The notes beneath the pieces were generated by a model. It did no database searches, was not told the DNA's origin, and saw only the letters and a list, made by a program, of their open reading frames with translations. Of a stretch of 64,000 nucleotides of DNA, positions 1 to 64,000 are shown one piece after another. The position numbers and the translations under genes were made by a program. Where the stretch lies: the NCBI GenBank assembly GCA_964036195.1, contig OZ038452.1:22269785-22333784 (forward strand), given 5' to 3'. Source of the stretch: Sphaerolaimus hirsutus. Its lineage: Eukaryota; Nematoda; Chromadorea; Monhysterida; Sphaerolaimidae. Within the stretch, counting starts at the first letter, position 1; every line of letters starts with the position of its first letter.

Positions 1-2802
1 TTCAAATCAACATACTTTGGAATACACGTAGTGCCAATCCTGATATTGTAAAAGTGCCTTTTTCTGCAAAAAGATCAACCTTTAACAAGTTTATTAGTTC
101 CTCTCGAAAACGCATCGCTGCATATGATAGTGCATAGCTATCTCTTTGGCAATACACAGACATCTCTTCAAAAACACAAAAGGCTTTGTCATAGTGTTCA
201 GCATGGTACAGGTCAAAAGCATTTGTATCTCTGCCAGAAACCGTAAACTCCCACTTGGGTCGTAAGTGACAGTATGCATCTGTCACATGTTCCTCATTCA
301 TATCGTAGCAGAAAAAAGATTTTGCTACAGGAACCTCAAACGATTTGCACAGGTTTTCCAATGATGTAGGTATATAGTTTGCCCAGCATATCAGTTTGAT
401 TCCACCCTTGAACTTGACATATAGTAGTCGATTGCCACGTGAAAAGGTTGTCTCTGGTGTTTTGCATTGTTCTATCAATGCAGATAGTAGAAAGTGAAAG
501 TCAAACCTGCTACCAAAGTGGCTAACAATTGTTGCATTGGCATTATCTGAAAACGACAAGTGATTAATAAGAGTCATGGAAAAAACATTATAAAAACTCA
601 CCAATGCAAAAAAAACTTTCGACAAAATCATATACACAATTCTCTCCTGCCCAAACACAGACTCTTGCCACACCACATTTGGCACATGGCGCATACATGT
701 CCTTTTTCCAACAGCGAGAACATGAACTGTGTTCGCAACGATGAAAAATGAAAGTATTATAAAAACAATTAGCAAAAACAAAAACTCACACTATAGTTGT
801 CAGCAGGTTCGCTTTGTGTACATTTGTACTGCTACATATTCTGGTTTCCAAATCCAAAAACACAATTTTCTTGGACCTTTCAGTTTGACGTGCTTTCAAA
901 ACAGGCAAATGACATGCAGTATGTGGCTCAGTCATAGATACTTGCTTTTTACAGTAACCACACCCAAAAGTTCTTTCTTCGGTACACCGATGAGTGTTAA
1001 CAAAAGATCCATCCTCACGCTTTTTGAGACTAAAATAATGTCCACATCCAGCACATAATCGTTGTGCATAGCATCGAGGTATAGACCATCGACCTCTCCC
1101 TTGTGCATGTAAATGCTGCCTATGTCCAAAAGACACACATATATAATCATATGTTACAACAAAAACCCAATCCAAAACGTACCGAAAGCAAAAGTTGGAG
1201 AAAAACTTTCTTAGGCAATCCGGACATGTCCTCTCTTCCCCTTTGACTTTCTCACAATCACATAGTAGACTTGTAATTTTCCTTGTTGATGTCAGAGCAA
1301 CAATCCCACAATAGGCACATCGAAATGGACATATATGCCTAAGTTTCATATGTGAAATTAGTCACTTGAAAACAAAAAATAAAATTTAGCAAACAAACCT
1401 TTTCTGTCCAAACAGCACCTCCTTGCATGTCTCACAAAATCCATGTGCACTTAAAAAGGTCACTAAACCCCATATTACAGCAAAAAATATATTTCCACCA
1501 TGGTGATACAAACACAAATTGATTACATATGGGCTTAGCATTGTATGTAAGTGTGAATCAGATGGTGGCCAAACCTGCTCTTTAATACCCTCTTGAAAAA
1601 CCCTAATAGCAACACCACGTAACATGGGAACATTTTGAATCCTATCTAAAGCATCCAGGCCGACAAAAACGTTTGCAGGTGGTAAACCAGCTTCTGTACG
1701 CAATTGAGATGCCAACTTTTCAAGTTCTACAGATGGACTTTTTTGACAATTACGTCTAACACGACGCCAATAGTTGCGAGATTCCTTACCCTTATCAGGA
1801 TTATAAGCACGTATTTTACCTAATGCTAAGCATACAGCATAAACCAAAGTTTGTTCAGATGCAACAACATATTCACAATGTTTTCGGCTTTTATTTGTCA
1901 TCATTGATTGTCGTAATCTTGCAGTTGTGACATCCTGATATGCGGATCTTCTACGACCACCACACAATCTGCCAACTGTGCCATAGTTCTTCAAATCAGT
2001 CAAATCCTCAGGTATTGTAATATCCGATACATCAGAATCGTTCCCATCATCATTGTCATTAAAACATCTAGTTAAATTGAACGAGACAGCTGGAACAGCA
2101 TACGAACAGGATGGTTGATCCGCTGGATCCATTATCGTTCTGGGTGCAAGCGAAAAGTACAATTGTCACTCTTACATCATAACATTATATAATAATAGTG
2201 AAAGATCAACTAAACCAATTACATTAACAATCAGTGTCATAGAACCGTCGGTCAGATTTATGGTTTGATGAGAGTTTAGTAGGTTTCCAATATCTTGAGC
2301 CGAAGCAACCGAACTAAATCGAGTTCCCAGACGAAAGTGCTCCAAATATGCTGTGTGAATGCAAAACACATTGTTCTTTAAAAATAGGAATCATATTTAA
2401 AGTAAGCATAGAAGGGGAACATACATTCTGGCAAATTTGGATGTTGTAGTGAAACACCAACATATACACTAGACGGATGACGGTCCCCAACAGTGTGTCT
2501 AAAAAAAATAAGCATGGCATGAAAACCAAAACAATTTATGACATGAACCAAAAATACCTGAATACACAGTCTATTGCTTCACTCAAAACAGCATCAACGT
2601 TTGAGTGTTCGTTCAAATCATGGAACGAAACCCTGTATGCATTCAAATTTAGCTTGAACCTTTCAGTATATTGTCTTTGTGGCTTAAAAATTGTAAAATG
2701 CTTCCGCCCAAACAAAATACCACTTCCTGATCTACTTTTCAGAATATTCGCCAAAACCTGATTATCGCTATTAGATGAACCAGCTACATCATCGTCATCC
2801 AT
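1..2802 (-). CDS. Protein-primed DNA polymerase B (Polinton/adintovirus type), 5' portion, 8 exons, partial
   Basis: Replicative family-B polymerase of the type encoded by Polinton/Maverick and adintovirus elements. Exons (minus): 2558-2802, 2425-2498, 2176-2350, 1399-2139, 1183-1338, 790-1119, 602-726, 1-546; the seven introns (59, 74, 36, 60, 63, 63, 55 nt) are GT-AG and all phases join, giving about 797 residues before the window edge. The N-terminal part is a long region typical of these proteins. Exons 4-6 carry CxxC/His zinc clusters (HICPFRCAYCG, CAGCG) ending in a CFR|QHL junction split by an intron. Exonuclease motifs follow: ExoI FLDLET, ExoII HFGSRFD and ExoIII YCQRD. The palm motifs lie left of base 1. 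Start is MDDDD at 2802, 17 bp from the divergent gene. Family assignment rests on motif order; the exact clade is not determined. Introns are unusual for this family. Whether it is part of a full element or domesticated cannot be told from the visible half. Confidence 0.8.
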
Positions 2803-2819
2803 AATTTATTATTATTAAA
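2803..2819. promoter_or_regulatory. 17-bp spacer between two divergent start codons
   Basis: Only 17 A/T bases separate the minus-strand polymerase ATG (2802) from the plus-strand ATG (2820). Any promoters must overlap the opposite gene or use this AT-only spacer. The two 5' leaders must be nearly absent or antisense to the other gene. Confidence 0.45.
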
Positions 2820-3892
2820 ATGAGCACTATCAGATCTGCAGCAGTTCAAAATGTGATAAAAGGCAAACAGGTCTACATTTCAAAGGTGGGTGAACAATGT
2901 CAAAAATTCAATATCTTTATACTACAAACAAAATCCCTCAATTTCAGGACGATAATGACTATGTGGAAAACATAATGGCATACTTCAGAAAAGATGTACC
3001 ACTTGAAATAGGTGCTCTTTTGCTGTCCTACATTCCAATTGGACACATCCTAATGCTAATCAAATGCGTTGCCACAAAGAAGCGAACCCATGAAAACAGT
3101 GATGAATTTAATATACGCAGAACCTTGATTCACTTGCTAAATAGCAATCACATTATGACAATTATGCGAGGCAAACTTATAACACTAATTGAATTCCAAG
3201 CTAGGACAATCACATCTGATGGTACAATGCAGCTTGTGATCAACTACTTTGGATCTGGAAAAAACGATGGTTTCTCATTATCCGTCGCATATGGTGAAAA
3301 AATACCCATACATGTTACCAATATGATACGCTGGTGTATGAACATTAAGCGTGTATGCTTTGTTGTAAGAGATGAGATGAATAATACCTGCACACATTAC
3401 CTACATCAACTATGGCCAATCTTTGCCAAAAAGGAAAAAATGTGCCAACTAGCTCTATTTGTAATTGGTAACAATACACAAATTGCCTTTAGACACACAT
3501 TTGCTTATTTACATTCAATTGTTAGCACCTTAAAACCATCCCAATTAGTTTTGTCATTTGTATGTACAAATGACATACTTACAGGACAAATGCTACAATT
3601 ATTTTTAGATACAAGTCAACTTGACCAAATACTATCAAAATGTAAGGCATGTTCAATTTCAGTACAAATTACAAAACTCATCCATCAACATGACATGAAT
3701 GCTTCACCTCTTGCAATGTGGAAAAACATGATTTGGCACATCAAACAGAAAATACCAGATCAATATTTAGAAACTTTTCACTATGAATTCAAGTATTGTG
3801 TCATGTTAAGCAGTAAGAATGAATTGAAAGAAAAGTTTCACTTTTGTCATAAAATAGCTGAAGAACATACTTCACTTAAGTGTACATCATGA
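2820..3892 (+). CDS. Unrecognised protein divergent from polymerase B, 2 exons
   Basis: I do not recognise this protein. Exon 1 2820-2885 (22 codons, MSTIRSAAVQ...), intron 2886-2947 (62 nt, GTGGGT to TTTCAG, phase 0), exon 2 2948-3892; total 336 residues. An unspliced frame opening at ATG 2897 also exists, but the spliced model gives a start next to the polymerase start and an intron of the same size class as the polymerase introns. The product is rich in Ile, Leu, His and Cys, mixed alpha-like, with no clear signal peptide or repeated motif; a CHK/CT-containing tail ends it. Because it is head to head with the polymerase and shares intron style, it is probably a gene of the same element. 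Function unknown. Confidence 0.6.
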
Positions 3893-10062: not shown

Positions 10063-10226
10063 GTGATGGAAAAGTGATGGCAAATGGCGCCAGTACTTTG
10101 GCGCCAAGCGAATTCGAAGTGCTTTTTCGGCGCTTTTTCGAACCCCAGCGACAAGAGCCAATGGCGCCAGAGCGTCATGGCGCTTTTTCCTTTGGCGCCA
10201 GCGCCATGGCGCTTTTCCATCACTAA
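10063..10226. mobile_element. GCGCC-word MITE, left end diverged
   Basis: Right end CGCTTTTCCATCACTA followed by ATCACCAC, the site used by two further insertions in copy 2. The left end is weak (GTGATGG at about 10062) and no matching left duplication was found. Confidence 0.55.
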
Positions 10227-11217
10227 TCACCACACGACTCTTTCATCGTAAAGCCATCTATCGACCGCATCGAGTTGTTGCTCGTCGTAACAATTCATGC
10301 TGAATGGAGAACAAAAGCTGAAATTAAATCTTTGGATGTTATGATGTCTTTTTTATTGTTGAAAGTCGGGTTGATATGGCTACGAGTGAAAGCAGACGCC
10401 ATCTAGGTTGATTGGTTAATAAATTCTGCACGATGTCGTTAAAGCGCACCAGGCATATATGGCTTTTAGCTTTTCTGTGAGAAAGGAAAAAAAGCGATGG
10501 CATTTTCGATGCCTTCGAGAAGCCATGGCGCTATCAAAAATTATCATCAGCGCCGGGAGATCCTGGCAACACCGACGATAAAATTTAATAGGGTAAGTAT
10601 AAAAATATATATCCTACCTAGGTATATTTTGATATTTTCTGATTTTTTTTTGTTGAAATTTTGATAATCTTTCAAAAAGAAAATATTATCAAATCTATCT
10701 GGAAACTCCTGCAAAAAATATATAAAGAAATCGTATATTTTCTGACATTGAAAAGGGTAAAATACAACATCACGAAAGTAAAGCAGCCCCAAAAATACCC
10801 ATCGAGCGGCGTGACGCGGCCGCCATGTTGCTGCGACGGGGTGGGCGGCACTGGCGCTGCCCAGGTGCGCGACGGCGGCCGCGCTCCCGAAACTGCCCCA
10901 GACACTGACGGCACGCTGAAATGGTGTTGGATCGACATTAGATACATCAATTTGGCATCAGACACTAGTTGACGACGACATCCAAATGTCAACTGGTTCC
11001 GATCCCAATTCAAAGCTTGTTGACAGCAGACGAGTGACGTTCAGATGCAAAAGTGTTGAATCACGCGGCGGTGTTGAAAAAATATTGCGGTATGTGCAAT
11101 GTAAATACAAGGCCGGCATGAAGTATACCCATGTTTAGACAAGAATGCGTAGTGCTACACGCCAACAAGCTTTTAACTGCGATCGGACCAGTTGACATTT
11201 CGTTTCGCTGTCAACTA

Positions 11218-11702
11218 CCGTATTTCCCCGAAATATTCTCTCTTCGAAATACCCCCCCCCCCTCGAAATACCCCCCTCAAAATGGACACTATGAACTTAT
11301 AAGCCCCCCCCCTCGAAATACCCCCCCTCAAAACGGACACTATGAACTTATAAACCCCCCCCCTCGAAATACCCCCCAAATTTAGTGTATAGAGAACGTA
11401 AATGACAAAGGCTGCGGTTTGTCATCCCGGCAATACACACGTTAAAAACGATGACTCTGTTATGTGAGAACAGTGTTTGTACGTCTACACACTTGTAAAT
11501 GTCTTTAGAGTCTTATAAATGGCGATTGTTGTTGCATTTTTCGACGTCTGCGTACGTTTCAGACGACATTTTAGTACTGGGATTTCAAAAAATTTCTGGC
11601 GAAATGATGAACCCCCCTCGAAATACCCCCCCTCGTTTCACCCCCCTCAAAATTCTCACTCTGAAAAAATAAACCCCCCGGGGGTATTTCGAGGAAATAC
11701 GG
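11218..11702. mobile_element. TA-flanked MITE, CCGTATTTCC family, private to copy 1
   Basis: Sits between duplicated TA (11216-11217, 11703-11704). Copy 2 has the uninterrupted site GTCAACTAGGCTATTAATG at 58921-58939. Arms CCGTATTTCCCCGAAATA and its complement; the interior holds C-runs with CTCGAAATACCCCCC units. Confidence 0.9.
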
Positions 11703-12186
11703 TAGTCTATTTATGTTGGGCCCTTAAATGTGAATGAAATCGATCAGAAAAACTTACCCATTATAAGGTTGCGAGCCGATGAAATACGGCTGAGCTATCG
11801 GCGCCTTGCTCCGCTTGTGTTTCTTCTTTTGAGCGAACAGGATACATAAAAAGCAGGCCAATAGACTCCCTCCAATTATGATTGCCAAAGTAATAATGAA
11901 CCAGTCCGAATTTGATGGTTTATTTGATTTGTCATCTCCTTTTCTGTTTGAATTCACGAGGGACTGGAGGTCATCTTGTATGGCTAAATTTCCTGAAAGT
12001 TTCACAATGTTTTTGCAAAGCGACATTTGTGTTTCAAGCCACGTTTTCACAAACCGGCGGGGATTACAACCGCGTCCGTTTCTTGTCCAGTTTCCTCACT
12101 CGTAATGCTAAAAACTGGCCTAGGTTCAGTGCCTTGAAGAGCCGATGTCGCAACCATTTTAGGTACTGTCACTGCGTTTGTAACAG

Positions 12187-12457
12187 CTGGGGGCACTCCC
12201 AGACCCTGTAAAATATCCTGTCAAATGTAGAATGTCAAGGAAAGTGTCAAAAGTTATGTAAAATGCCATGTAAAATGGTGTTTAACATCATTACACAAAG
12301 TATTTTACACTTTACATGTCATTTGACATTTTACAGAGGATTTTACATGTCTTTTTACATTTTTCATGACATTTGACATTTTCCAGGGCATTTTACATGT
12401 CTTTTGTCACTTTGCATGGCATTTGACAGGGCATTTGACAGGTTCTGGGAGTGGCAC
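12187..12457 (-). mobile_element. Introner-like element forming a complete intron of the LRR gene
   Basis: On the minus strand the intron starts GTGCCACTCCCAGAACCTGT and ends ACAGGGTCTGGGAGTGCCCCCAG, so the transposon ends are the splice sites. The upstream exon ends CCAG and the element also ends CCAG, the signature of a target duplication. The exon frame joins phase 1 to phase 1 across it. Interior: TGTCAAATG/GTAAAATG words in both orientations. The same intron is in copy 2 (60096-60392). Confidence 0.85.
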
Positions 12458-13008
12458 CTGGTAATGGAGTGGTTTTCATTGACGTGGCCATGATTGTGGT
12501 AAAACTGTTCGTGGTAGCATCCATCTCCTTAATTTCTCCAATGCCCAGCGTGAATTGCCGCTCCACATTGTTATTAGGTGCTTGATTTCCAGCCACAAGT
12601 GCGCTGATAATGTCCGCTAGCTGAGCTTGCGTCAGACTTCCTTCGGGCACATTCTGAGGCACTGTGGTGGGATCGCCGCCAGCTGGCGGGATGTTTGTGG
12701 ATGTCTGCGGTTGGCCTAGCCGCTCGTTTAGAACACGAGCGAGATCGTTCAGGTCGAAATTGAGCTGCGAATCAATGGCGTTTTTATCGAAACAAATTCG
12801 CAAAAAAATCTCGACGTGAATTTCTAATCTCCCCATGGGCCAATACGAATACACACGAGTTGACATCGCAAATTTGTGTCAACTGAATGTCAACTAAAAC
12901 ACACATTTTTATCAAAGAGCATCACAGTTCACACCCTACAAAAACTCTGAAAATCAAGTGTGACGATATAAAATAAACCATTCTATCACATAGGATGGTT
13001 GAAATCAC

Positions 13009-14993
13009 CAGAGTTGTACAAATACTGGTATTTTTGGAAAACGTAAACGTAAACGTAAATACCTTTTCCAAATCTTAAGTATAAATACTAAAACGTAAGG
13101 TATTTTTAAAATACCGAGGAATACGTAAAAAAAAACGTAAACGTAAAAATTTTATACATGTAGTATTTGCCATTTTGCTTTGGAAAATACCATTATTTTC
13201 ACCTTTATATGGGTCAATCACTGATTTCCATACAATATCTTTATGTTTTAGCACTACATGCTCACCATAATGAACAACATCAAGTCAGACAACTATAACA
13301 AATGATTATCTAATTTAACACAAACAATGATGATATTGACATCAAAATTGAGCAAAAATTACATATTTTTGTAATTCAGTCTGATAAATAATTTGCTCAA
13401 ATGTGTCCACATCCCAAATGGATCCTTTTACCAAATTTCAAAAGCCCAGCATGGCTAAATGGACACTTTACAGCCACTGTTTCAGTGCATTGCAACTTTT
13501 AAAACTGTTTGTTTAGCTTAGCCTCTTTTGTAAAAATGTCTCATCAAATATACTGTGACATCTGCCATACCTATCTGAAGACGGAACCTAAAACTGTGTT
13601 GAATTTTTATCATAAATATTACATTTCTTTCATTATTTTGTTCATAATTTATTGTCAGTTTATGACAAAATACAGTTGCATTTTTATGTACAGCATTTAC
13701 TCCGGTCAGTGGACAATAGTGGCTATGTATTGGAGTTAGTGATGGAATGGCGCCATGGCGCTGGCGCCATTTGAGGGCGCCAAAGGGCGCCGCGCCATGG
13801 CGCCATTGGCGCTTGGCGCCCTTTTTCTGTGGCGCCCTTGGCGCCTGGCGCCCACTTTCTGAAAGGCGCCATGGCGCCCTTGGCGCTTGGCGCCCTTTCT
13901 CCGTGGCGCCCTTGGCGCCTGGCGCCCTGCCCTAAAAGGGCGCCAAAATGGCGCCAGCATGGTTTCAAGGTGAGTGCTGCGTGAATGAATAAAAAATAAA
14001 AAAACGGGTCTGTGAATGACGGAAATTCACTGGAAAATAGACAAAGTGGTGTGAGTGGATGTATATGTTTCATCCAATTTTTATCAGATGCGTGTAACGG
14101 ATCAGAAGCTGAGCATGATAGACCGGTGAACTTGCAAACTCGTAAATCAACGGATTGAAATTATCGGAATTCCGATGTCGTCCGCTTGAAGAAAACATAT
14201 ATTGGAAAATCTATTTGATGTGCATTCATTGTTTTGTCGAATGAGAATTTTAAAAGTGTTTGAATTGAATATCATGTGTGTGAGTACGGTTTTTGCACAA
14301 AAGTTTGTTGCTAGGCTCATTTTTGCTGATTACATCCTTGAGAACATGAATAAAGAAGTGAATGTGTGCACTACAGTGCTGGAGAAGCATTTTTAGCACA
14401 CGCAGGGTATTCTACTCGCTTTTTTATTCTGGCGCCATTGGCGCCTGGCGCCCTTCTTTTCAATTGGCGCCATGGCGCCCTTGGCGCTTGGCGCCCTCTT
14501 TCCGTGGCGCGCTTGGCGCCTGGCGCCCACTTTCCGAATGGCGCCATGGCGCCCTTGGCGCTTGGCGCCCTTTTTCTGTGGCGCCCTTGGCGCTTGGCGC
14601 CCAGTTTCCGAATGGCGCCATGGCGCCATTGGCGCCTGGCGCCCTTTTTTCTGGCGCTTTTCCATCACTAATTGGAGTGTATTAAATATTTGAGGTGTTG
14701 TTTGTACTCATTCTAATCGCGGGACTAAAGTGATCGCCACGTCATTCTGACCATTTTAAGTGGTCAACCATCAAAATCGGTAGAGAATTCATGGGAATAT
14801 GCAGTTTCTTCTGAGGGCGCAGCCACTGAAAACACCTAAATATCAGAATTTTTACGTTTTCCGAAGTACCCGGGTATTTCGGTCTGGAAAACGTAACAAA
14901 ACGTAATGGTATTTTTGGAAAACGTAAACGTAAATATAAATACCCGAATAACCGGGTATTTCGGGTAAACGTAAATACGTTTTTCCAACTCTG
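13009..14993. mobile_element. hAT-like MITE, CAGAGTTG family, AACGTA word, private to copy 1
   Basis: 8-bp duplication GAAATCAC (13001-13008, 14994-15001); copy 2 keeps the empty site GAAATCACATACC at about 61345. The interior has AACGTA words at both ends and a long unique middle nearly identical to the copy at 21771-22819. Contains the nested element 13737-14670. It lies in an LRR-gene intron. Confidence 0.92.
13737..14670. mobile_element. hAT-like MITE, TAGTGATG ends, GCGCC word, nested
   Basis: 8-bp duplication ATTGGAGT (13729-13736, 14671-14678). The sister host element at 22491 keeps ATTGGAGT once, proving the insertion. Two blocks of GCGCCATGGCGCCCTTGGCG words flank about 440 bp of ordinary sequence. 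Confidence 0.92.
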
Positions 14994-15397
14994 GAAATCA
15001 CATACCTAATTAACTAAAATTGAGTTGAATTTAGTTGACACGAATTTTGATGTCAACTAGTGTGTCTGAGCCCTAAGTCGCTCAAAAATTCACCAACCGG
15101 TTCAGGATTGCCGCTGGCGATGGGTCTTAGCTGCAGCCACTCGCCATCTCCACTGCCCGGCTGCGCACTTTCCTCGGCACTTTGCGTCGCTCCGAGTTCA
15201 TTTTGGTTCTGTAAACGCTCATTGATCAGTCTCTGCGGTGTGTGATACATGTCTGACTGAATGTTAATGAATGGATATTAATTGCATTTAATGCTACACC
15301 TGTAAATCATTGGGATTGAAGTTGATCGGCTTCGGCGTACCCATCATGCTTGCTTTTATGGCCACTGTCTGGCCGTTTAGAAACTGCTCGTCTTGAC

Positions 15398-16435
15398 CAG
15401 GGTTGGCAAAATCTCAGAAAAAAATAAAAATAAAATAAAAATAAAATGGAATATTGAAGAATAAAATAAAATAAAATAAAATGGAAAATTAAAGAATAAA
15501 AATAAAAATTGTATAAAAATTCGAATTTTTGTAAAATTTTTGTAAAATTGTATAAAAATTCGTATTTTTGTAAAATTGTATAAAAATTCATATTTTTTGT
15601 AAAATTTTGTCTCATTGCTCGAGTCTCTACCTGTTTATTCATGGATCTGGGGGCAGTCCCAAGCATTGTAAAGTGTCAAATGTCATGTCAAATGTCATGC
15701 AAAGTGTCAATTGCTATGACATGTAAAATGTAAAGTATCAATTGTCAAGCAAATTGTGTTCAAATCTCATGTTTGCTTTCGAAATCTTTTGTTTTGTATC
15801 CAAATTTTGTTGTTGTTGACTCCAAAATATTATGTGAACATTTGGATACAAAAACATAAGATTTGGATATAAAACATACTATGGATACAAAAACACAAGA
15901 TTTGGATACACAATTTACACTTTGCATGACATTTGTCATGACAATTGCCACTTTGCTTTAAATTTTACATGACACTTGACATTTTGCACGACAATTGATA
16001 CTTTACTTTACATTTGTCATGACAATTGACACTTTGGATGACATTTTACAAATGTGCCCAGCACACTCCAGTAGTCCTTCTACTGAAAATGCAAACCATT
16101 CTTATCAATAATTGTAACTTTACACTTGCAGCTAGCTAACAATACATATTGCATGCAACTTTTGAAAAGTAAGGGAAAAATTTGTCACAGGTTTTTCATG
16201 TAAGGTCTAATTATAACATTTTTCTGGCCTTGCATGCATGTTTCTGATTTTTTGTAAAATTTTTGTACAATTTTTGTAAAATTTTTGTAAAATGAGTCAT
16301 TTTATTTTATTAATGACTTTTGGGAATAAAATAAAATAAAATAAAATGAAACAAGAATAAAATAAAAATAAAATAAAATTTTTATACAATTTTTATACAA
16401 TTTTAATAAAATGAATTTTTATAAAACCAACCCTG
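15398..16435. mobile_element. hAT-like element in a coding exon, CAGGGTTGG ends
   Basis: Ends CAGGGTTGG/CCAACCCTG with 8-bp duplication GTCTTGAC (15390-15397, 16436-16443). The same exon in copy 2 (61651-61791) is uninterrupted at GTCTTGACGCGC. Both flanks are AAAATAAAATAAA-type words. An introner-like element sits inside (15647-about 16071). Confidence 0.93.
15647..16071 (-). mobile_element. Introner-like element, diverged, inside the hAT element
   Basis: Plus-strand left end CTGGGGGCAGTCCCAAGCATTGTAAAG; the right end is a diverged complement around TTTTACAAATGTGCCCAG. The interior alternates GTCAAATGTCATG and GGATACAAAA words. Not in a coding context. Confidence 0.6.
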
Positions 16436-16509
16436 GTCTTGACGCGCTTGCCTGGCGAGACTGAAAGGCTTTCGATCACTGTCGGACTTCGTGGAATTGA
16501 ATGCAGATA

Positions 16510-16663
16510 CCGTATTTATTCTAATAGAAGGACAGGTCTCCAATATAAGGGCGGGTCTCCAATAGACGGGCGTTTTCAATAGACGGGCGGGTATCCAATA
16601 GAAGTGCAGGTAAAAAGTTGACGAAAAAAATAGAAGGGCGTCCTTCAATTAGAAGAAATACGG
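16510..16663. mobile_element. TA-flanked MITE, CCGTATTTCTTCTAATAGAA family
   Basis: Ends CCGTATTTATTCTAATAGAAGG and its complement between TA dinucleotides. Fills most of the intron between exons 5 and 6 of the LRR gene. Also present in copy 2 (61815-61988), so older than the duplication. Confidence 0.75.
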
Positions 16664-18980
16664 TAACCATTGACCGACCTGCCCTCTACCTGCTGTCTGA
16701 CCAATTCGCCATTTTGCAACAGCACATCGAGCACGTTCTGCAGCAATCTTTCGTCGAACCCGACCGCCTGCGTGTTCGAAACGGTGCCGGCGATCGGCAC
16801 CAGATGCGCGCTTTTTTGATTCAGCGGCACCAGTTTCGGCTCTTCGCACTCGTCCATGGCTAGGATGGCCGTTTTTGGTGGCACCTGTCGCGGTGGTTTC
16901 AGACTGCCCTCTATTGATTAAGAAAAAGGCTATCGTACATCCTCGAATAAGACCTCATTGAATACCTCCACCCTCTTGAATAACACACCCTGAAAACGAT
17001 CCGACAAAAATTGAAAAAACCTGTCGATGAGCCTTGGGCTGATTCATCGAATGCAAATGCACCGCGGTGTGCGAAACGAAAAACTACAGAAGAATGTGAG
17101 CCTACGGCGTAATAAAAGCATAGTAAAAAATAAGTCCCTCTTTTAACCCCTCTTGAATAACTCCCCCCTCAAACACTATGATGAAAAATAACTCTGTTGG
17201 GGTATTTTTCGAGGACGTAGGTAAATATAAAGCCAAAGCCTAAGACTATAAAGCCAAATAACGACACCTTCAGTATATTCAGGCCAATTTAGGCATTTTA
17301 GAAATTGCACCGAGTTTCGAGCGCGCCACATAAAAAGGGTTTTAAAATTACACCATTCCATCACTTCTACCACCTTCCCACCCAGCTTCCCACCAACCAA
17401 ATACAGGAACTCCGGGCCGCCGCAAGCCACCGCGTCACCATCGATCAGCGCCGCGGGGCTGCTATGGAACCACTGCAACAGCGGCAGCGTGGTGCAGTCG
17501 CACAGCCACGGGTTGCCCGACAGCGACACCTCGTTGATTGTGTGCAGGCGGGTTAGGTCGGTCGCTTTGATCTGGGTTTGAGGGTTTGGGTTGGGTTAGG
17601 GACTTTGGTGGAAAGTCGCGTTCGCTGTGCAAGTTCCGCTATGGTGCACATTGGAAAAGACCCGCAAGGTTTCTCGTTCGTTGGCTATTGTTAGGAAATT
17701 TTACACGGAAGTTGTATTTAGTTACCTAGTTAGGCCAAAAACACGGCGTTTCTGAAGACATTGGAATGTATTGAACAATCGTGCATGAGTGTTGTTTTCA
17801 ATTCGCCATTCACGGTCAGACAAGGGGGAGTATTGAATCCAGGACAGGAAACTCCCAAGGGTAAAAAAAAATTCGTCACCGAGGCGCATGTATGGGGGAG
17901 TTATTCGAGCAGAGCCTAATCAAGAATTCACGGCAAGGAAGTACTGCCCTATCATTTTCTACAGAATACCTAGGTGTTTAAATATATGTAGGTACCGTAT
18001 ATCGTAGAATATGACCCTCCCTTAAATAGGTGGGTGAGGAAGTGAGGAAACCGCGCCTTGAATAGCGTCCCCTCTCTATAACCCTCCCCCCAAAACTTCT
18101 GACGAAAAAACAACTCCCCTGGGGTCTTATTCGACGATATACCGTAATAGCAAAATGTCCAAAATACAGAATGACACCTGCGTCAAAACATTGTCTCTCA
18201 GGTGCAGCGTCTGTAGATTGTTCGGCAGTTGTGGGAAAGTGTCCAGCAGACAACTATTTGCCACAAGTTTCCTTAGCAGGTAGCACTTTGAAATGTCCAC
18301 ATTTATCAATGGGTTGTTGGACAGGTAAAGCTCGAACAGCGACGGCGCTTGGTGGAATGTGGTCTGCGTCAGGTTAATTCATTGGATTAACTAGGTACTA
18401 CTTTGATAGTCCGCGGTACATAGTGCTTATGCGATATTATAAATAAGTAGTTATTGTTCCCGTAATTTTATATTAGCAGTTTAAATCGATTTCCGCGCCA
18501 GGCCAGTTTGCGAACCCAGAAAAATATGTGGTAAAATACACTCGCGGGGGTTTAGTGGATTTTACACATCTGAGTAGGTAGTTAAATAGGTAAATATTTA
18601 GAATACCTGGAAGTGAGACTTATCAGAGAGAACAAAAATGCCGTAAAAAATTTGGCGAGGGTGTTTCTGCAGGCTAAGACATTGCCCCAGAGTTTCACTA
18701 TTAAATTCAATGGCCCACTAAACATCGCACCGTTGGGACAAAAGTCATCTTGTTGCCTTCCAGGTGCAGCACCTGCAGCCGCGGCAGGGCGGCGAACACA
18801 TCCTCCGGCAGCGTGACTAGGGCATTGTATGACAAGTCGAGTACACGTACATTTGGAAGATCTGAGAACGCGGCCCGCGTCAGTTGACTGACGCGATTTT
18901 TAGCCAGTATCAGCGTTCGCAGGTTGCGTAGACCGAAAAATATGCCTGCAAGGAATAATTGAGAAACATGAATAGAGGCC

Positions 18981-21376: not shown

Positions 21377-24300
21377 TCAAAGTTCATCCTCATCCTCATC
21401 AGGTTCAGCTGAAAAATAAATATTCGCCATCAAAAATCAATCAAAATTAATTTCCACTCAGTGTAAAAAACTTCGCCTATCAAAAACACCTCCCCCCCCA
21501 ACAAACCATATTGTCCACAGTCGGGTCTCTTTCCGTGGACACTGGACCTGTCAAATTCCCTGCCCCAGCGGTCGACGCACCAGCAGCGATTTTCATGGCA
21601 CTGTTCCGGACGATAATAGCCATCGGTGTCGCAGCGGGGCAGGAAAACACCTGTGGCGAAAACGGCCTTTGCTCGGAGTTTGGTACTGGCCTTAAATTCG
21701 ATTGAATAGAATGTGAAACGTTTCTTACGTAATTGAATATTTTCATGTTATAACGTTTTTTAATTCAAAGCAGAGTTGTACAAATACTGGTATTTTTGGA
21801 AAACGTAAACGTAAACGTAAATACCTTTTCCAAATCTTAAGTATAAATACTAAAACGTAAGGTATTTTTAAAATACCGAGGAATACGTAAAAAAAAACGT
21901 AAACGTAAAAATTTTATACATGTAGTATTTGCCATTTTGCTTTGGAAAATACCATTATTTTCACCTTTATATGGGTCAATCACTGATTTCCATACAATAT
22001 CTTTATGTTTTAGCACTACATGCTCACCATAATGAACAACATCAAGTCAGACAACTATAACAAATGATTATCTAATTTAACACAAACAATGATGATATTG
22101 ACATCAAAATTGAGCAAAAATTACATATTTTTGTAATTCAGTCTGATAAATAATTTGCTCAAATGTGTCCACATCCCAAATGGATCCTTTTACCAAATTT
22201 CAAAAGCCCAGCATGGCTAAATGGACACTTTACAGCCACTGTTTCAGTGCATTGCAACTTTTAAAACTGTTTGTTTAGCCTAGCCTCTTTTGTAAAAATG
22301 TCTCATCAAATATACTGTGACATCTGCCATACCTATCTGAAGACGGAACCTAAAACTGTGTTGAATTTTTATCATAAATATTACATTTCTTTCATTATTT
22401 TGTTCATAATTTATTGTCAGTTTATGACAAAATACAGTTGCATTTTTATGTACAGCATTTACTCCGGTCAGTGGACAATAGTGGCTATGTATTGGAGTGT
22501 ATTAAATATTTGAGGTGTTGTTTGTACTCATTCTAATCGCAGGACTAAAGTGATCGCCACGTCATTCTGACCATTTTAAGTGGTCAACCATCAAAATCGG
22601 TAGAGAATTCATGGGAATATGCAGTTTCTTCTGAGGGCGCAGCCACTGAAAACACCTAAATATCAGAATTTTTACGTTTTCCGAAGTACCCGGGTATTTC
22701 GGTCTGGAAAACGTAACAAAACGTAATGGTATTTTTGGAAAACGTAAACGTAAACGTAAATATAAATACCCGAATAACCGGGTATTTCGGGTAAACGTAA
22801 ATACGTTTTTCCAACTCTGATTCAAAGTCACATTCAAAACTCAATTTTCCTCAAAATTTTAAATATTATTCCTCGTTTATTTTTACTACGTACCGAGCAA
22901 GTGCGGGTCGACCTTGTGGCGCGCAGAGTGGCAGGGCGGCTCCTCACGCGCTGAAGTGGAGATATGAACACATAAATATTGGGATAAATCAGGTGGTGAT
23001 TTTTGCAGTTGGCTCAAAGAATTCGGTTCCATTCCAATGACTCCATTTACCGCAAATACATGTATAATAACCAGAAAACAACCCCCAGCCTAGTGATGTG
23101 AAAGCGCCAGGGCGCTGGCGCTTGGCGCTAGCGCCAAAGCAAAAAGCGCCATGGCGCTTGGCGCTTTTTGCTGTGGCGCCATGCCCATGAAAAACGCCAT
23201 GGCGCTTTTGGCGCTTGGCGCTATTTTGCTGTGGCGCCATGCCCATGAAAAGCGCCATGGCGCTTGGCGCCAAAGTTCTGGCGCATTTCACATCACTACC
23301 CCAGCCACACTCACGCTTGCCCACGAAGACAAAACAGTCGCACCACTCGTCCAGACTGATCTTGTTGTCGGCGTTGTCGTCGCACCTGTCCACGAAGGGC
23401 TTGATGCAGTGCTCGTAGGGGTCGCCCTCCATGCTGTTCAGTTCCTCCAGTGTCAGGGTGCCCGACTGGTCGCCATCCCACTGGGAGAACATCCAGGCGA
23501 CACTGTCCTGTGGGTGGTGGGGATTGGGTGATGTTGTTGTGACTGCATTACTGCTATTTCAACGGTGCAAACATGAATATCATAACGGATATTTTTCAAT
23601 TTTTCCAAATTGGTGCAAAAGATTAATATGACTAAAGTTCTGACGATCAGAATAAATATTATACAAGTAGGTGCATTAATAAATAATGTTTTGTGTAATG
23701 CATGTTGCGGTGTGGGGGCGGGGTCGACGGGGTATATCATGGATTGGCACTAACTACTTGCAGGAACTACAACTGTAATGTAACTGATAAAAAATGGCTA
23801 AAGCCAACAAAAAGTGGACACTGCACCTAACCATGTGTATGCTTTTGAATGCACAAAAGTAATATATCATATACCATGCCATTTTCTGATTGAGCTATTA
23901 AAAGATGTACCTATATCAAGAGAAATGTACACAAATGCTAATAATATAGGCTATCAACACAGCAAACTGCATCACAAGAAACAATTTCACCAAACTTTTG
24001 CATGGCAGCGTGAGCTGTGTCAAAGTGCTGCAAACATAAAAGATACAAAAAGCTCACGCTGCCATGCAAAAGTTTGGTGAAATTGTTTCTTGTGATGCAG
24101 TTTGCTGTGTTGATAGCCTATATTATTAGCATTTGTGTACATTTCCCTTGATATAGGTACATCTTTTAATAGCTCAATCAGAAAATGGCATGGTATATGA
24201 TATATTACTTTTGTGCATTCAAAAGCATACACATGGTTAGGTGCAGTGTCCACTTTTTGTTGGCTTTAGCCATTTTTTATCAGATATACTTCTTTTTGTG

Positions 24301-27300
24301 GGCCACAGGCCCAAAAGTTAGTTATTGCAAATCAAGCAAATGCCAAATGTGGCAGTGAGCAATACAATCTATAGTCAAGAAGAAGCCAAATACTAAGATT
24401 CAAAAGATTTTCAACCTGACATTTAGAACCTGAAAGTTATCACTTGACATTTATGACTTGAAATTACCCACTTGACAATAACTTGACATAAACCACTTGA
24501 CATTTATGACTGAATGGCATCACTTGATATTTATGACTTGACATGAACTGCTTGCCATTTTTTCACCTGATAGTTTTCACTTGACATAAACAACTTGACA
24601 GGTATCACCTGAAAATTGTTACTTGACATATTACTTGACATTTGACATGACATTTATCACTTCACATTAAACTTGACATTTCACTTGAAATTTATCACTT
24701 GACGTTAAACTTGACATTTGACATGACATTTATCACTTGACATTAAGCTTGACATTTAACTTGACATTTGACTTGACATTTGACTTGACATTTCACTTGA
24801 AATTTATTACTTGACATTTCACTTGAAATTTATCACTTGGCATTTGACTTGACTTGACTTTAGACTTGACATTTAAAACTTGACATTTGACTTGATATTT
24901 GATCACTTGACATTAAACTTTACATTTGACTTGACATTTCTCACTTGAAATTTGACTTGACATTTATCACTTGAAATTTGACTTGACATATGACTTGATA
25001 TTTGACTTGACTTTTATGAGTTGACATTAAACTTGACATTTCACTTGAAATTTGTCACTTGACATTTGACTTGAAATGTGTCACTTGACATTTGACATGA
25101 CATTTGACATTACATTTCACTTGAAATTTATCACTTTACATTTGACTTGACATTTGACATGACATTTATCATCTGACATTAATCTTGACATTTCAATTGA
25201 AATTTATCAGTTGACATTTGACTTGAAAGTTATCACTTGAAATTTGATTTGATACTTTATCACTTGATATTTTATAACTATCTATCACTTGACATTTATC
25301 AATTGACATTTCACTTGAAATTATCACTTGACAATTATCACTTGACATTTCACTTGAAATCTACCACTTGACATTTATCACTTGATATTTGACTTGATAT
25401 TTTATCACTTAATATTTTATCACTAGACATCTATCACTTGACATTTATCACTTGACATTTGACTTGACATTTATAACTTGACATTTGACTTGACATCAAC
25501 CACTAGACATTTATGACCTGATAGTAATCAGCATGCAAGGTCACATGCTCAGTATCACATGAAGCAGTAGTTCAGGCATGTTTGCGCATTTTACACAAAA
25601 TAAGCAAACTTGAATAACTTTTGTAATCTGTACCAAAATTGCCAAAAATTGGCTCATTTGAAAGCTCTAGTCATGGCACACATCAACAAATTTTTTTTAT
25701 TGCCCCATTTGTATTCAAATTTTAAATTTATTGAGGTTTGAAAATTTCAAACAGATACCGTACCAAAGTGGGCGGAGCCTGTGAAAAAAAAATTCCCGAA
25801 AATAAGAAATGGCATCATATTCTCTTTCAAATGAGCCATCAACCATGAAAATCGGTCGTGTTTCAAGGAAGTTATTGCAGTTTGAAGATTTTCGGGAGAA
25901 CAAGAAAAACAACAACAACAAGAACACTACTTGAAAAAGAAAATGCGTAATAACTTCCTCCGAACTCAACCGTTGGATCTGAAAATTTGCATGGTGGTAC
26001 TTTTCGACACGGGCTTTTTAATGGTGCAGTCGGTTCTGCACTAGCGCATTGCGTTCCGAAGTTATTGCGATTTTAAATTTGCGATTTCCGCATTTTGGTG
26101 TGTCTGACCATATTATGGGTGGGTCGCTTGCGCCCTCCCTCGGCAGCGAGGGATGGCGCTGGCGCGCCCACCCGATAAAGAGAAAAACACAGAGAACATA
26201 AGTACACAAAGTAATCCTTCCATCCATCAAGTCAACACACCCCCATGTTCAACACAATCTCAAAACACCACACAACCCACCTTGCACTGTACCCGATGCG
26301 CTGGCAACAGAGCCGGGTCTGCCTGCCCGCCCACCTCCTTCTGCACGTCGCCGAACCACTTGAGCAGGCGCTCGCCCATGGCCGACAAGTCGTCCTAGGG
26401 GCAGTTCCTGACCTTGTAATGGAAAATGTCATGTAAAGTGTCAAAAGTCGTGTAAAATGCCCTGCAATATGGCAAACGTGTTTGACATTTTGCAGAGCAT
26501 TTTACACGACTTTTGACACTTTGCATGACATTTGACACTTTACAGGCCTTTTTACAGGGTCTGGGACTGGCACCTGGCTGCACACGTCGCCTCCATTGTA
26601 GGAAGTGTGACGCAGCGTGGCCGTGTTGGCGGGGTCGCGCTCGGCGAGCAGATCGTGCTTTAGAAGGTGGTCCACCTGAATGGTTGAATGGAAGTTTGAG
26701 AATGGCGCTGCGCGCATTAGTTTACTGCCAGATTTTAATGAACTCATAAATCGGCTCTGAACGCATTTGAGTTTACCAGAATGAGGTGCCTGTCAACTGC
26801 AGTTGATGGGGATTAAGAATAACTGATTCCAGTAAACAAATGCATTCAAAATCGATTTACGAGTTTACCAAAATCTGGCAGTAAACTAGTGTGCAAACTG
26901 TGGATTAGGTTACCGTAGGAAGGGTGCAGCTTTAGAAGGTTTTTCGACAAGTTTTCACATAAATCACGAGGTCAAAACGGCACCGAAAATTGAACCTCAT
27001 TCAAATGGCTGTCGTGCAGGCTGCGCTGCATCTTCTGCACGCGTCTCTTGTATTTTTCCAGCTTCGCGTAAGCTGCATTGGCCAATTTTTCACCATGATC
27101 ATTGTCAATTTCACCGTGATGCTTTTGTTTATCTGCTTGTCTGCGTGGAGCAATGTCACATTGAAACACAGTCCAGCAATTAGACACCCTTCAGGACAAG
27201 TTGACAAAAATGTTGCAAATTTACATCTTGTCGAGCTCGTTCTCCTTGACGCACAGGGCGGTGTTGCCGTGCACCAGACACACCTCGGTCGACAGGCAGT

Positions 27301-27533
27301 TCAGCGATGAACACATGTTGTCTGCGAGATTGATCAATGTATGCGTCGGCATTGGTGGCGCTATGGCATTGCTCAGAGAATTGACTGGCATTCTCCAATA
27401 GAGCGGCAGTTTGAAAATGTTGACGATTAGAATAAAAGTTCGATGTGAAAGCCGATTTCAATAAAGTAAGCATCACAATTCTGGCGAAATAATCTCTCCT
27501 CGAGTAACCCTCCACCGCGTTTTTCTGGCGAAA
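21377..27533 (-). CDS. Testican/SPOCK-like extracellular proteoglycan core, 9 exons found, 5' end missing
   Basis: Secreted matrix protein of the SPARC/testican family. Exons (minus): 27477-27533, 27225-27322, 26996-27140, 26574-26675, 26293-26394, 23315-23507, 22894-22950, 21507-21650, 21377-21408; every phase joins. Order: YSRRDYFARI (testican N-terminal motif); EGF-like follistatin part (CLSTEVCLVHGNTALC); charged linker; EC module beginning CSQDDLSAMGERLLKWF; two EF loops (DGDQSGTLTLEE, DDNADNKISLDE) with CIKPF and WCDCF cysteines; REEPPC; thyroglobulin type-1 domain (CDTDGYYRPEQC, CWCV); acidic end EPDEDEDEL. EC followed by thyroglobulin plus an acidic tail distinguishes testican from SPARC. 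No Kazal cysteines are present. One in-frame TGA lies at 27302-27304. The signal-peptide exon should lie above 27533. Introns are loaded with MITEs, and one intron is an introner-like element. Confidence 0.9.
21771..22819. mobile_element. hAT-like MITE, CAGAGTTG family, AACGTA word, in testican intron
   Basis: 8-bp duplication ATTCAAAG (21763-21770, 22820-22827). Near-identical to 13009-14993 without its nested insertion, so it serves as the empty-site control for 13737-14670. Confidence 0.92.
23091..23298. mobile_element. hAT-like MITE, TAGTGATG ends, GCGCC word, next to testican splice donor
   Basis: 8-bp duplication CCCCAGCC (23083-23090, 23299-23306). The right flank is only about 8 bp from the GTGAGT donor at 23314 of the EF-hand exon. 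Confidence 0.92.
23784..24283. repeat. Near-perfect 233-bp hairpin in testican intron
   Basis: Arms 23784-24016 and 24051-24283 are complementary with one mismatch noticed (AGAGAAATG against CATTTCCCT); loop 34 nt. The same open frame (MDTAPNHVYAF...) reads out from both sides, which only reflects the symmetry. A related fold-back copy is at 38275-38933. Confidence 0.9.
24400..25560. repeat. Degenerate TTGACATT tandem array
   Basis: More than 1 kb of CACTTGACATTTATCACTTGACATTTGACTTGACAT-type words on one strand, unit about 8-18 bp, no fixed period. Lies in the largest testican intron. The word is the same one that fills introner-like elements (TGACATTTGACA). Confidence 0.85.
25680..26175. 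repeat. Dispersed repeat, inverted copy at 37520-38010
   Basis: About 490 bp from the CAATAAATTT-type left end to GGCGCTGGCGCGCCCACCC, including an AAGAACAACAACAACA block. The reverse complement recurs near-identically 12 kb to the right. Confidence 0.85.
26395..26573 (-). mobile_element. Introner-like element forming a complete testican intron
   Basis: On the minus strand the 179-bp intron starts GTGCCAGTCCCAGACCCTGT and ends GGTCAGGAACTGCCCCTAG. The upstream exon ends CCAG. The frame joins phase 0 to phase 0 within CSQ|DDLSAM of the conserved EC start. Interior words GTGTCAAATGTC/GTAAAATGC face each other around the centre. Its right end is more diverged than that of the LRR-gene example. 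Confidence 0.85.
26711..26894. mobile_element. CACACTAGTTTACT inverted-repeat MITE in testican intron
   Basis: Left GCGCATTAGTTTACTGCCAG, right CTGGCAGTAAACTAGTGTGC; sister copy 44809-44979. Shares the CACTAGTT end with the GTTGACA and TTTTCACC families. Confidence 0.75.
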
Positions 27534-27562
27534 CTGTAAACTATAAGTTTTCTTCTGAAATG

Positions 27563-31503: not shown

Positions 31504-33085
31504 TGGCGCCAAAATTCCATTTTTGTGCGTGTTACCTACCACAACCCGTATTATACCTGTAAAAGGGCCAGACCCAGTAAAATGCCATACAGTGCCAAAA
31601 CTGAAAACGTCATGTAAAATGGCAAATTTTATTTTTACTGTATTTTTTGACTGCATGGCATCTGACATTTTGCAGGGTCTGGGAGCTGAAACGGGCGGTG
31701 GTACCGCACAGGAGTTCCAAGTCATCGCAGATGCCAGTAGATTTAAAGTAGAAAGGCCGGATAGGATAGCTGGACCCCAGATAAGTGTTTACCTTGAAAA
31801 CAACGTGGAGACTGTTTCGATGTTGTTGTTTTTTCTACTTACAATTTCATAGCAGATGACCGTCACTGTTTTCGGGTACACGCGTTTTTTTCCAATTTTC
31901 GACAGTTTTAAATAGTTGAGGTCAAGAAAAGGTATGGGTCTTAGAAAGGTCTCGGGATGGGGAATCGCGTCGCGAACGTAGAACCCAGGGACCTGCGCCG
32001 TTACTCATCTAAACCCATTATTCATCCTGCCGATTACCCATATAATTCAAGCTTTAGAAAAGCTCTACAGTAATCATTTTACTACATCGAGATGCACTGC
32101 GCACTGGCAACCATGGACGGGTGATGGGTAGAATCATATAAGTACTGGGTCTAGATTAATATGGGTTTAGATGAGTAATATGCTTTAGCTGAACCCAGTC
32201 TGTTAGCCTGACCTAACACCACATCTGATATAGGGATGGCACCAGGGGATCCTGGATTTTGACCCTCCTTCTGGTGATAGACAGCTGAAATTTTTTTAGG
32301 CAGGTGTGGGGCTTCAATATATGGGCTTGATCCTCATTGGAGACCTCTGGATAAAACTTTGTCAACTGCATCGTTTCAAATCAGATTATAAAACGTATTT
32401 TTTTTAGTACCAGTCATTTATCCATCAGGTACTTTGCAAGCACATTTCACATATCAATCTTAATTCGTTATTGACTATTCTTGGTTATTTTTGTACTATG
32501 TACTTTCGCTTATATGCTTCTATTTCTAGCAATTGACCCCCCTTACTGCCTACCACTTTGAAAAATCCTGTAAAATTCAACCCCCCCCCCAAAAAAAACT
32601 TTTTTTCAGCTATATATCCCTCCAAAGGGGCAATTTGCTATTTATCCAACCTCCAGAGGGTCAAAATAAGAATACAACAGTAACTTGCAGTCAACTACAG
32701 GGATATTTGGCAGAAACCACTTGCTGCTAAAATATGGACCCGCAGCCATTCCTTATGTGCCACAATGCTGTGACAATAAATGTTGTTTTTCCCATTTAAA
32801 ATACTAACATTAAATACTGTTCTATAATAGAAATTCAGCTAATTCGAATTTTTTAAACAAAAAACAATCAGACTGAAAAAAAGTTTTTTTTCCATCTCAG
32901 ATCTGAAAACAGCATCAACCCAAACGTCCCTTGCAATAACCTACACTTCAAATTCTTGTATTCGAATTCATTCATTTCGAATTTAATTTTTCAGAAAGCT
33001 AGAAATCGTCTTGATGAACCCACTTCATTCATTCTAAATAACAGATAAAAATCAAAACAAGGCATAAACACCGATTGTCACCGTA
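31504..33085. other. No confident gene
   Basis: Contains an introner-resembling stretch (31560-31690), C- and A-runs near 32580 and AT-rich DNA. A plus-strand open frame (31472-31852) crosses the repeat and is not supported. The LLPH 3' UTR probably begins just left of 33086. Confidence 0.4.
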
Positions 33086-33857
33086 TCACAACTTGATAGT
33101 CTTGGGCTTAGTTTTCAGCTTCTTCTTGTCTGTTTTCTTTTTGATCGCTTTAATTTTCTTGATGCTTCTTTGATTCATCCAGGCGGGATACTGGCCATTT
33201 TCGTTGCACAATTTCGTCGATTTTTTCGTCACTTTTCCAGAAGTTGCAACTGAAATTGAAAGGCAACATTTCGATTGGCATTCATCGCTAATGACTAGGG
33301 TTAAAAGAGACCAAGGTCTCAGCCTCGCTTATCAAAAATTAAAATGTCAGTTTTGTTCTCAAAAACGTGATTTCGTTAAAATCCTACTAATTGAGGATTT
33401 GGGACCATGCGGGGAAGGATGCTGTCAAATAAACGCTAGTGCAATAGTATACATGTGTTGACGAACCAGCAGTATCCATTTTCACGATCGCATTTCCGTC
33501 GCCCGATTTGACAGAAGACTCGGGTGTTAATGTGTCTGCACAGGGTTAACAATGATTGGCAAGTTGTTGAAGTGACGTCAAAACTTTATGGTAATGGTTG
33601 AAAATTCACTTCACGCGAGTACATGGAGGTATAAATACACCTAGATACAAATGCAAAATCCATATAAAAGGTCCCACACAAATTGGACCATTGCCAATAC
33701 AGCATAAATCTATTAACATACCTGGGACAGGCATTTGCTGTTCTAGAGCATCTTTAGCGGCTAGTCGCTTTAGTTTGGCCACTTCACGTGGCAAAAATTT
33801 CACTCGGCGCTGTGCGCGCACTTTCCGTTTGCGCTTAGACCTCATTGACTTCGCCAT
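33086..33857 (-). CDS. LLPH: LLP homolog (LLPH), nuclear/nucleolar ribosome-biogenesis factor, 2 exons, complete
   Basis: Small basic nuclear protein (LAPS18-like family) of large-subunit ribosome biogenesis. Exon 1 33722-33857 encodes MAKSMRSKRKRKVRAQRR..., matching the family N-terminus MAKS(L/M)RSK(W/R)KRK. The GTATGT donor leaves phase 1, and after a 472-bp intron exon 2 33086-33249 encodes the family signature GQYPAWMNQR and a Lys-rich tail ending TIKL. Predicted 99 residues, shorter than vertebrate LLPH (about 129) because the middle acidic linker is shorter. Start chosen as the ATG that begins the conserved MAKS. No transposon end was recognised in the intron. Confidence 0.92.
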
Positions 33858-34736
33858 TTCGAGTGGGCCTTTCTTTTTTTGCGAAATAACCTATTTCGGG
33901 ACAATTTTCAGTTTATCTGTCCAGGCTAGGAAATAAAAAGATTTTGTACGGGATAATGCGTAACGTTGTTTCGTATAAGGCGGGGTTTGCATATGTTTTT
34001 CCCAAAATAACGTTAACTAATTTGGCAAAATGCCAGACTCTGGCCACCCCGTTTTGCGTTCGCGTTTTATTTCGTCACTATGTTTTACGCCCAGGTATTT
34101 GGTGATTCATAAATTCAGGGGATTCAGGTGAAGTTCTAGTTTACTCTAGGGTGATTTTAAAGCCTACCAAATACATGTGTGTAGTGTAAAAGGAATTTGA
34201 TACACAGTAAAGTTTGTATAGCTAGAAAGCCCTTTTTGTAGTTTGTCTGACCTATCGAGAAATGCTCAAGGCACATTTTTGGCACTTTTGGGACAAATAT
34301 TCTATAGTCTCTTACTGTTACCAATGCATGAAACACCTCATAGCCATTTGATTTTGGTTCTGTGTGTCTTACGAATTTGTTTTTGTGCAAATGTTCGATA
34401 TTTTCCAAACCGTAAAAAATGCCACGTTGTTGGTGATTGTTGATATATGTTTGGTTTGAAGCCGATTATTTATTCGATCGAATACCAGAAAAGCAGAGAT
34501 TTATTCAAGCTTGGTTTTTAATCCTGAACGCAAAAAGGTCATGATAATGTTTTTAATGAACGTACGCGCGATGCCCACTTCAGGTTAATGATTTGATTAA
34601 ATACCTTGCCTATTTATGAACGTATGACGCACGCGCGCGACATTGATTTCTGTGAACTAATTTGAGATCCTTTGATAGGTTATTCTCTGTTATTCCGACC
34701 CGATTTTTACCCGCAAAACTGTCCCGGCATTTTGCC

Positions 34737-34933
34737 TATATTTGGCGGACCGCAAAGTGTGCACAGAATCCTACCATAATTTAATGAATACAATATTGTG
34801 ATAAATTTGATAATTAATTTTTTGCATAGTAAAAACGAAATGTTATGATGAATTTTATAAATAATTATTGGTTCATCATTCAGATGGGTTATGGTAGGTT
34901 TCCATACTAAGTGTGCCGTCCGCCGAGTATACA
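34737..34933. mobile_element. Short inverted-repeat MITE, TATACTCGGCGGAC ends
   Basis: Left TATATTTGGCGGACCGCAAAGT, right ACTAAGTGTGCCGTCCGCCGAGTATA. Related sequence is nested in 31125-31503. Confidence 0.7.
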
Positions 34934-63838: not shown

Positions 63839-64000
63839 CTGCGTCACGTTAATTCATTGGATTAACTAGGTACTACTTTGATAGTCACATAGTGCTTACG
63901 CGATATTTTTAATAAGTACCTAGTTATTGTTCCCGTAATTTTATATTAGCAGTTTAAATCGATTTCCGCGCCAGGCCAGTTTTCGAACCCAGAAAATAGA

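Follow-up and report, generated by a model that had tools for sequence, protein, structure and literature searches.

A candidate introner family with CWG target sites in the nematode Sphaerolaimus hirsutus: an inverted-repeat transposon that probably forms whole introns

Introners, mobile elements that create introns by insertion, are reported to be rare in animals: across animals and land plants, the survey by Gozashti et al. (2022; PMC9860276) detected just two groups with introners, both of them animal. Among DNA transposons, the NuwaI group is marked in animals by 5′-CWG-3′ target duplications and by inverted repeats that usually start with GGG (PMC4482050), and the consulted sections of that account do not describe intron creation. 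In human genes, TG has been described as a 3′ splice site only where an AG nearby can be used instead, and no TG acceptor was constitutive (PMC2374985). The present analysis concerns a 64,000-nt stretch of the genome of the nematode Sphaerolaimus hirsutus (assembly GCA_964036195.1, contig OZ038452.1, positions 22,269,785 to 22,333,784, forward strand), referred to here as the window. It centers on an inverted-repeat element at 12187-12457 on the minus strand (element A), which occupies an intron of a gene for a transmembrane protein with leucine-rich repeats (LRR).

The results suggested, with a probability of roughly 0.9, that this intron is an introner, in this case a non-autonomous DNA transposon of the miniature inverted-repeat transposable element (MITE) type whose insertion into an exon makes a spliceosomal intron. 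Insertion into a CAG target in the sense orientation would give CAG/GTGCCA...GCCCC/CAG/, where slashes separate target copies and element. The left end of the element would then supply the donor GT beside the exonic CAG, the duplicated target would supply the acceptor AG behind a run of C, and excision by splicing would restore the old message exactly. The features of the LRR gene (copy A) and of its tandem paralogue (copy B) are given here.

12187-12457, minus: element A, intron of LRR copy A, recognized by direct reading, by its arms and by its family
12190-12457, minus: transposon body of element A
12187-12189, minus: second copy of the CAG target
12458-12460, minus: first copy of the CAG target, the final 3 nt of the upstream exon of copy A
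12458-12764, minus: exon of copy A upstream of element A
12055-12186, minus: exon of copy A downstream of element A, followed by a 62-nt GT-AG intron
60096-60392, minus: element B, at the same site in copy B, with GT and CAG ends retained
60393-60699, minus: exon of copy B upstream of element B
59964-60095, minus: exon of copy B downstream of element B
15398-16435, minus: hAT-like element, about 1,038 bp long, inserted into an upstream exon of copy A and absent from copy B

On the minus strand, the exon upstream of element A ends in ...CCATTACCAG, the intron starts with GTGCCACTCCCAG and ends with CTGGGAGTGCCCCCAG, and the following exon starts with CTGTTAC; the length of the intron is 271 nt. 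The arms of the inverted repeat match over 39 nt at 85% at the tips and over 71 nt at 79% inside. With short flanks included, the element folds into a structure far more stable than those of shuffled sequences (z = -8.9). Together with the family copies, these properties bear out an earlier note on this DNA, in which 12187-12457 was described as an inverted-repeat element from end to end. The same note had proposed that the element brings the splice sites at both ends. The donor GT does belong to the element, but the acceptor AG lies in the second target copy. Excision of element A restores a single open frame of 179 codons across the junction, as had also been claimed, and all three frames are closed when the element is read through unspliced. 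The restored frame is not evidence of splicing, however, because removal of any insertion plus one target copy restores the frame.

The tandem duplication of the LRR gene (window 10213-18523 versus 57663-63996) shows many presence/absence differences of transposons between its two copies, and it represents a natural collection of empty sites. Elements A and B are 89% identical over 297 columns. Over seven exon segments, the two LRR copies differ by 23 synonymous and 14 nonsynonymous changes, a ratio of nonsynonymous to synonymous rates (dN/dS) of 0.19, and the exon upstream of the element carries four synonymous and no nonsynonymous changes over 100 codons. The insertion is older than the duplication, and the gene was under constraint while carrying the element, less clearly so downstream of it. 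The hAT-like insertion in copy A is flanked by an 8-bp target duplication, GTCAAGAC, and nested inside it lies element H, a degraded introner-family member. An Rfam search of the window gave no match.

A second intron in the window belongs to the same family and lies in a gene of a conserved type, with the following features.

26395-26573, minus: element D, a whole intron of 179 nt (CAG/GTGCCA...CCCCTAG/GAC) of a SPARC-family gene
26574-26675, minus: exon upstream of element D, ending YNGGDVCSQ
26281-26394, minus: exon downstream of element D, starting DDLSAMGERLLKWF

In the joined SPARC-family protein, residues 79-178 match PF10591 (SPARC_Ca_bdg), and the junction falls at 82/83. The two flanking exons alone, once joined, gave an alignment of 25 residues to 25 positions of the profile that spans the junction (E = 0.08, short of the cut-off), and neither half matched SPARC_Ca_bdg separately. 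In a PDB comparison of this protein, only the EF-hand part was covered, and the junction was not reached. The gene extends over window 22894-27554 (minus), with the EF-hand part and, further downstream, a Thyroglobulin_1 domain; by domain order, we take it to be testican/SMOC-like.

Similar sequences elsewhere in the genome appear to be whole introns at different positions of different genes, as judged from frame and domain continuity: besides the LRR pair and SPARC, these are HSP70, CDK-like, cullin, I-set, ZIP and CHGN genes. Among 30 peptides joined in the sense direction, hand-picked by eye mainly for long open frames, eight gave a Pfam match across the junction (5/10, 0/10 and 3/10 in three sets), in addition to SPARC. 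The joined flanks matched 69 residues on 69 positions at a first HSP70 site (E = 2.2e-26) and 64 on 64 at a second (E = 4.8e-26). The CDK-like gene gave a Pkinase match across the junction (E = 1.2e-38), and CHGN matches crossed the junction at two sites (CHGN1 and CHGN2). Weaker matches across the junction were those to cullin (E = 2.8e-6) and ZIP (E = 1.7e-6), both under the curated cut-off, and to the immunoglobulin domain I-set (E = 5e-5), at the cut-off. An LRR protein at locus L053 matched repeats and was left out of this tally. For comparison, the ten longest antisense peptides of the 30 with at least 20 codons on both sides gave no credible match. The antisense matches that were seen, NAD-GH (E = 6e-9) and DUF5555 (E = 0.019), came from the strand opposite HSP70, and the NAD-GH match there is presumably a known artefact. 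Read-through was closed in 7/7 elements with correct boundaries, a test that omits CHGN1, CHGN2 and the L053 element, whose boundaries were off by one. GT...AG ends are present at LRR A/B, SPARC (as TAG), CDK-like, I-set, cullin, the second HSP70 site and CHGN1.

The family is represented in the window by five further copies.

52795-52986, plus: element C, CTG at the left and CAG at the right
48348-48454, minus: element E, with an internal deletion and CAG on both sides
58650-58902, plus: element F, antisense in a downstream intron of LRR copy B, CAG on both sides, missing from copy A
62303-62519, plus: element G, antisense in an intron of LRR copy B, left flank degraded
15647-16060, minus: element H, degraded, nested in the hAT-like insertion
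11189-11191, plus: the one CAG at the unoccupied site of copy A corresponding to element F

No Pfam domain was found near elements C and E on their own strand, and intron status is not claimed for them. In all seven resolved copies of the window (A and B being one insertion), the left end starts with GT, and the right end starts with GGG when read inward. The sequences show a mobile family, whose terminal inverted repeats (TIRs) start with GTG[C/G]CA at the left and with GGGGCA at the right, and with target duplication and short length, the family has the features of MITEs. The empty site for element F in copy A (11181-11202) reads GATCGGACCAGTTGACATT and contains a single CAG, whereas the filled site in copy B contains two; this pair of sites shows the boundaries of the element. 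The earlier note had considered CAG or CCAG as the duplicated target. CAG was confirmed and CCAG was not: the flanks of element E are CGT-CAG before the element and CCC-CAG at its end, so that CAG is repeated and CCAG is not. Because element E repeats only CAG and CTG copies exist, the duplicated target is, on the copies compared, the 3-bp CWG. The alternative that the terminal 3′ CAG is part of the element was rejected, as CTG-left copies mostly end in CTG and the empty site has a single CAG.

The same pattern was found outside the window. At loci with CAG at the left, the right triplet was CAG in 22/30, and the other eight were CCA, AAG, CGA, CTG, GCT, CGG, CCT and AAC; two pairs of these loci (L064/L067 and L065/L066) have identical flanks within each pair and are likely duplicates. 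At 20 loci with CTG at the left, a right end was found in 19, with CTG in 14 and CAG in four. These concordances are inflated, as the boundary finder favors a right triplet equal to the left one, and it retained only left ends starting with GT or GC. In a set of 35 copies, the left and right triplets were CAG and CAG in 16, CTG and CTG in five, CTG and CAG in four, CAG and CTG in two, and others in eight; both CAG-CTG cases are nested copies in locus L003, and one of them is a mispairing.

The genome-wide search for the element ends that had been proposed earlier was productive. In the 348-Mb genome, CAG plus the left end occurs 6,035 times at one mismatch or fewer, a number of left ends of family copies anywhere and not a tally of introns. 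CTG plus the left end occurs 5,857 times under the same threshold, and the two counts overlap, as the single mismatch may fall on the middle base. Control searches gave 0 in both cases, with a reversed pattern in the case of CAG. Among exact matches, the first 100 extend to 20.2 Mb of contig C1 with CTG and to 16.5 Mb with CAG, and CTG at the left seems almost as frequent as CAG. Scans for the exact pattern in viral contigs and prokaryote genome contigs and a blastn of phages gave no match. Two pairs of closely spaced copies were noted on contig C1. Those at 3191464 and 3191816 (L078 and L055) lie about 0.35 kb apart in apparently one gene, which in our own reading resembles the SMYD type and has no Pfam match. 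Those at 5420034 and 5421078 (L090 and L091) lie 1.04 kb apart in apparently one CHGN gene.

The HSP70 genes provided empty sites in coding sequence. The first HSP70 element lies between NERL and VGDAAK, and five HSP70 paralogues of the same genome are contiguous through this site, where their DNA reads CTG (four) or TTG (one). Two HSP70 copies are split at the first site and two more are split further along. In the contiguous paralogues, the first site is an empty one in coding sequence that holds the target word, and one HSP70 member therefore has intron-lacking homologues. With the independent members that appear as whole introns of unrelated conserved genes and the empty site in the window, these coding sites support the introner proposal of the earlier note. 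The element of the first site has a CTG target and is present twice, at L003 (1504-1771) and at L094 (minus orientation), within a duplicated, strongly conserved exon. The exons of the two loci differ by three synonymous and no nonsynonymous changes over 207 nt, whereas the elements differ at 14/188 sites and by 80 gap columns, and both have GT...TG ends. L003 and L094 have no internal GT-AG pair in common that would keep the frame, and each such pair found would add at least 16 residues to the HSP70 domain. The same HSP70 gene carries a second introner (L003 at about 2518-3233, minus orientation), with CAG on both sides, a nested family copy and other repeats.

These results leave two readings of CTG-target copies in conserved exons: either they are GT-TG introns that are spliced, or the genes are damaged. 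Tentatively, one transposon might make two kinds of intron according to the middle base of CWG, GT-AG introns at CAG and constitutive GT-TG introns at CTG, the latter perhaps aided by an AG that the family element carries 19 nt upstream of its terminal end and by the hairpin; this two-kind scheme is doubtful. If it were true, this animal may have hundreds of GT-TG introns.

Several observations weigh against the introner reading. Ends of the GT...CTG type, without AG, are found at the first HSP70 site, ZIP and CHGN2. Target copies are unequal in four of the nine domain-supported elements (SPARC, CAG and TAG; CDK-like, CCG and CAG; cullin and CHGN1, CTG and CAG); the right copy ends in AG in all four, as would be expected if acceptors improve after insertion. 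Open-frame length did not discriminate, as 33 sense and 30 antisense of 60 elements had at least 20 codons on both sides, and therefore the domain matches were relied on. By an approximate splice-site matrix, the terminal splice sites score weakly, and stronger acceptors lie 19 and 31 nt upstream of the terminal one, both of which shift the frame if paired with the terminal donor. In the two LRR exons downstream of the element, six synonymous and seven nonsynonymous changes (p = 0.06) point to weaker constraint. LRR copy A is probably a pseudogene broken by the hAT-like insertion, and copy B is therefore the informative gene. Much of this would fit a MITE that inserts into exons and is not spliced at all, which would leave the genes dead or make the insertions rare alleles: copy A is broken in any case, the terminal sites are weak, and the CTG copies lack AG. 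Such an account is quite improbable, as the exons beside the elements show constraint after duplication, both in the LRR pair (the dN/dS given above) and in the HSP70 pair, where the elements diverged and the exons changed only synonymously. Furthermore, the arms of ten examined elements differ by 6-23%, and because of this difference the elements do not appear brand new.

Other accounts of the introns were considered. Older, ordinary introns might have been present, with the MITE entering them and replacing their contents. Protein searches with the LRR and the SPARC-family proteins found no homologues, and hence no intronless orthologue for either site, which favors replacement and weighs against the introner reading. 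Replacement is nevertheless very improbable, as every part of the old introns would have to be lost right up to both splice sites, time after time, and the five HSP70 paralogues have the target word and no intron at the site. An unlikely alternative is that the element is removed at inner splice sites (e.g., the donor at +18 or the acceptor at -9), with the protein gaining a few residues. Elements A and B share six frame-keeping GT-AG pairs, the terminal pair being one of them; the inner in-frame pairs count against the introner reading as well. The inner TIR holds GTAAAA donors and TTTTACAG acceptors, and at ZIP, GT-AG splicing that keeps 21 nt is possible. Against inner splicing, domain continuity is gapless at the SPARC and HSP70 junctions, and by the same approximate matrix the terminal donor is the best-scoring frame-keeping donor in elements A, B and D. 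In the scores of the LRR introns, the entry for the LRR-B element is a mis-hit, and the acceptors assigned to introns 1 to 3 are guesses. Spread through reverse splicing of RNA copies, a route proposed for the introner-like elements of fungi, would explain why the ends of exonic copies coincide with splice sites. It is extremely improbable here, since DNA transposition is indicated by the TIRs, by the CWG duplications and by a copy that lies antisense outside exons and has an empty counterpart.

For the origin of the introner family, a NuwaI-type element of the PIF/Harbinger group is the candidate parent; a G-to-T change at position 2 of one of its ends would have created the donor. The genome contains 163 matches to DDE_Tnp_4 (PF13359). 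No TIR pair like that of the family was found at the two of these 163 loci that were inspected, and no autonomous partner was identified, which is the remaining adverse point; a NuwaI-type parent is therefore one that we infer. In most of the DDE_Tnp_4 matches listed, about 630 nt correspond to 147 positions of the profile and four TGA occur, pointing to an intron within the transposase gene.

Other features of the window were also noted. At window 2-2165 (minus), three open frames are present, the first with a DNA_pol_B_2 (DNA polymerase B) match, and this region presumably represents a Polinton/Maverick-type element. Another repeat has two copies, at 13009-13736 and 21771-22498, which are 99.9% identical over 728 bp and thus very recent. 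LLPH (LLP homolog) matches were found in two frames at window 32901-37800 (minus).

The origin of introns is a long-standing question, and this genome offers thousands of mapped element ends together with coding empty sites in the same genome. A simple CWG target rule and a candidate parent group make intron birth testable site by site. The questions opened include which of the insertions are spliced, at what rate their splice sites improve, and whether a CTG target forces the use of TG. A literature search by title found no introner named as PIF/Harbinger or NuwaI, and the family may already be in print.

Compared to the introners of Gozashti et al. (2022; PMC9860276), the present family shares repeated similar introns, which there in part have inverted repeats and target duplications, and the principle that one splice site is carried and the other co-opted; the type in their Fig. 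2C carries the donor. It differs in its host, whose genes (SPARC, CHGN, Ig domains) point to an animal, its CWG target, its GT left and GG right ends and its CTG targets without AG. The introner elements of the dinoflagellate Amoebophrya (PMC7789003) are likewise introns with inverted repeats and have direct repeats of 3-5 nt over the exon boundaries, but in that protist host the introns are for the most part non-canonical and their ends vary. The human TG acceptors (PMC2374985) resemble what CTG-target copies would need, a TG used as a 3′ splice site near an AG, whereas here TG would be the sole end that restores the HSP70 message. With the NuwaI group of the PHIS superfamily (PIF/Harbinger, ISL2EU, Spy; PMC4482050), the family shares CWG target duplications and animal hosts, and its right end resembles the usual GGG start. 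It differs in being short and non-coding and in its GTG left end, and ends and target make NuwaI a candidate relative of the elements that probably form introns in S. hirsutus.
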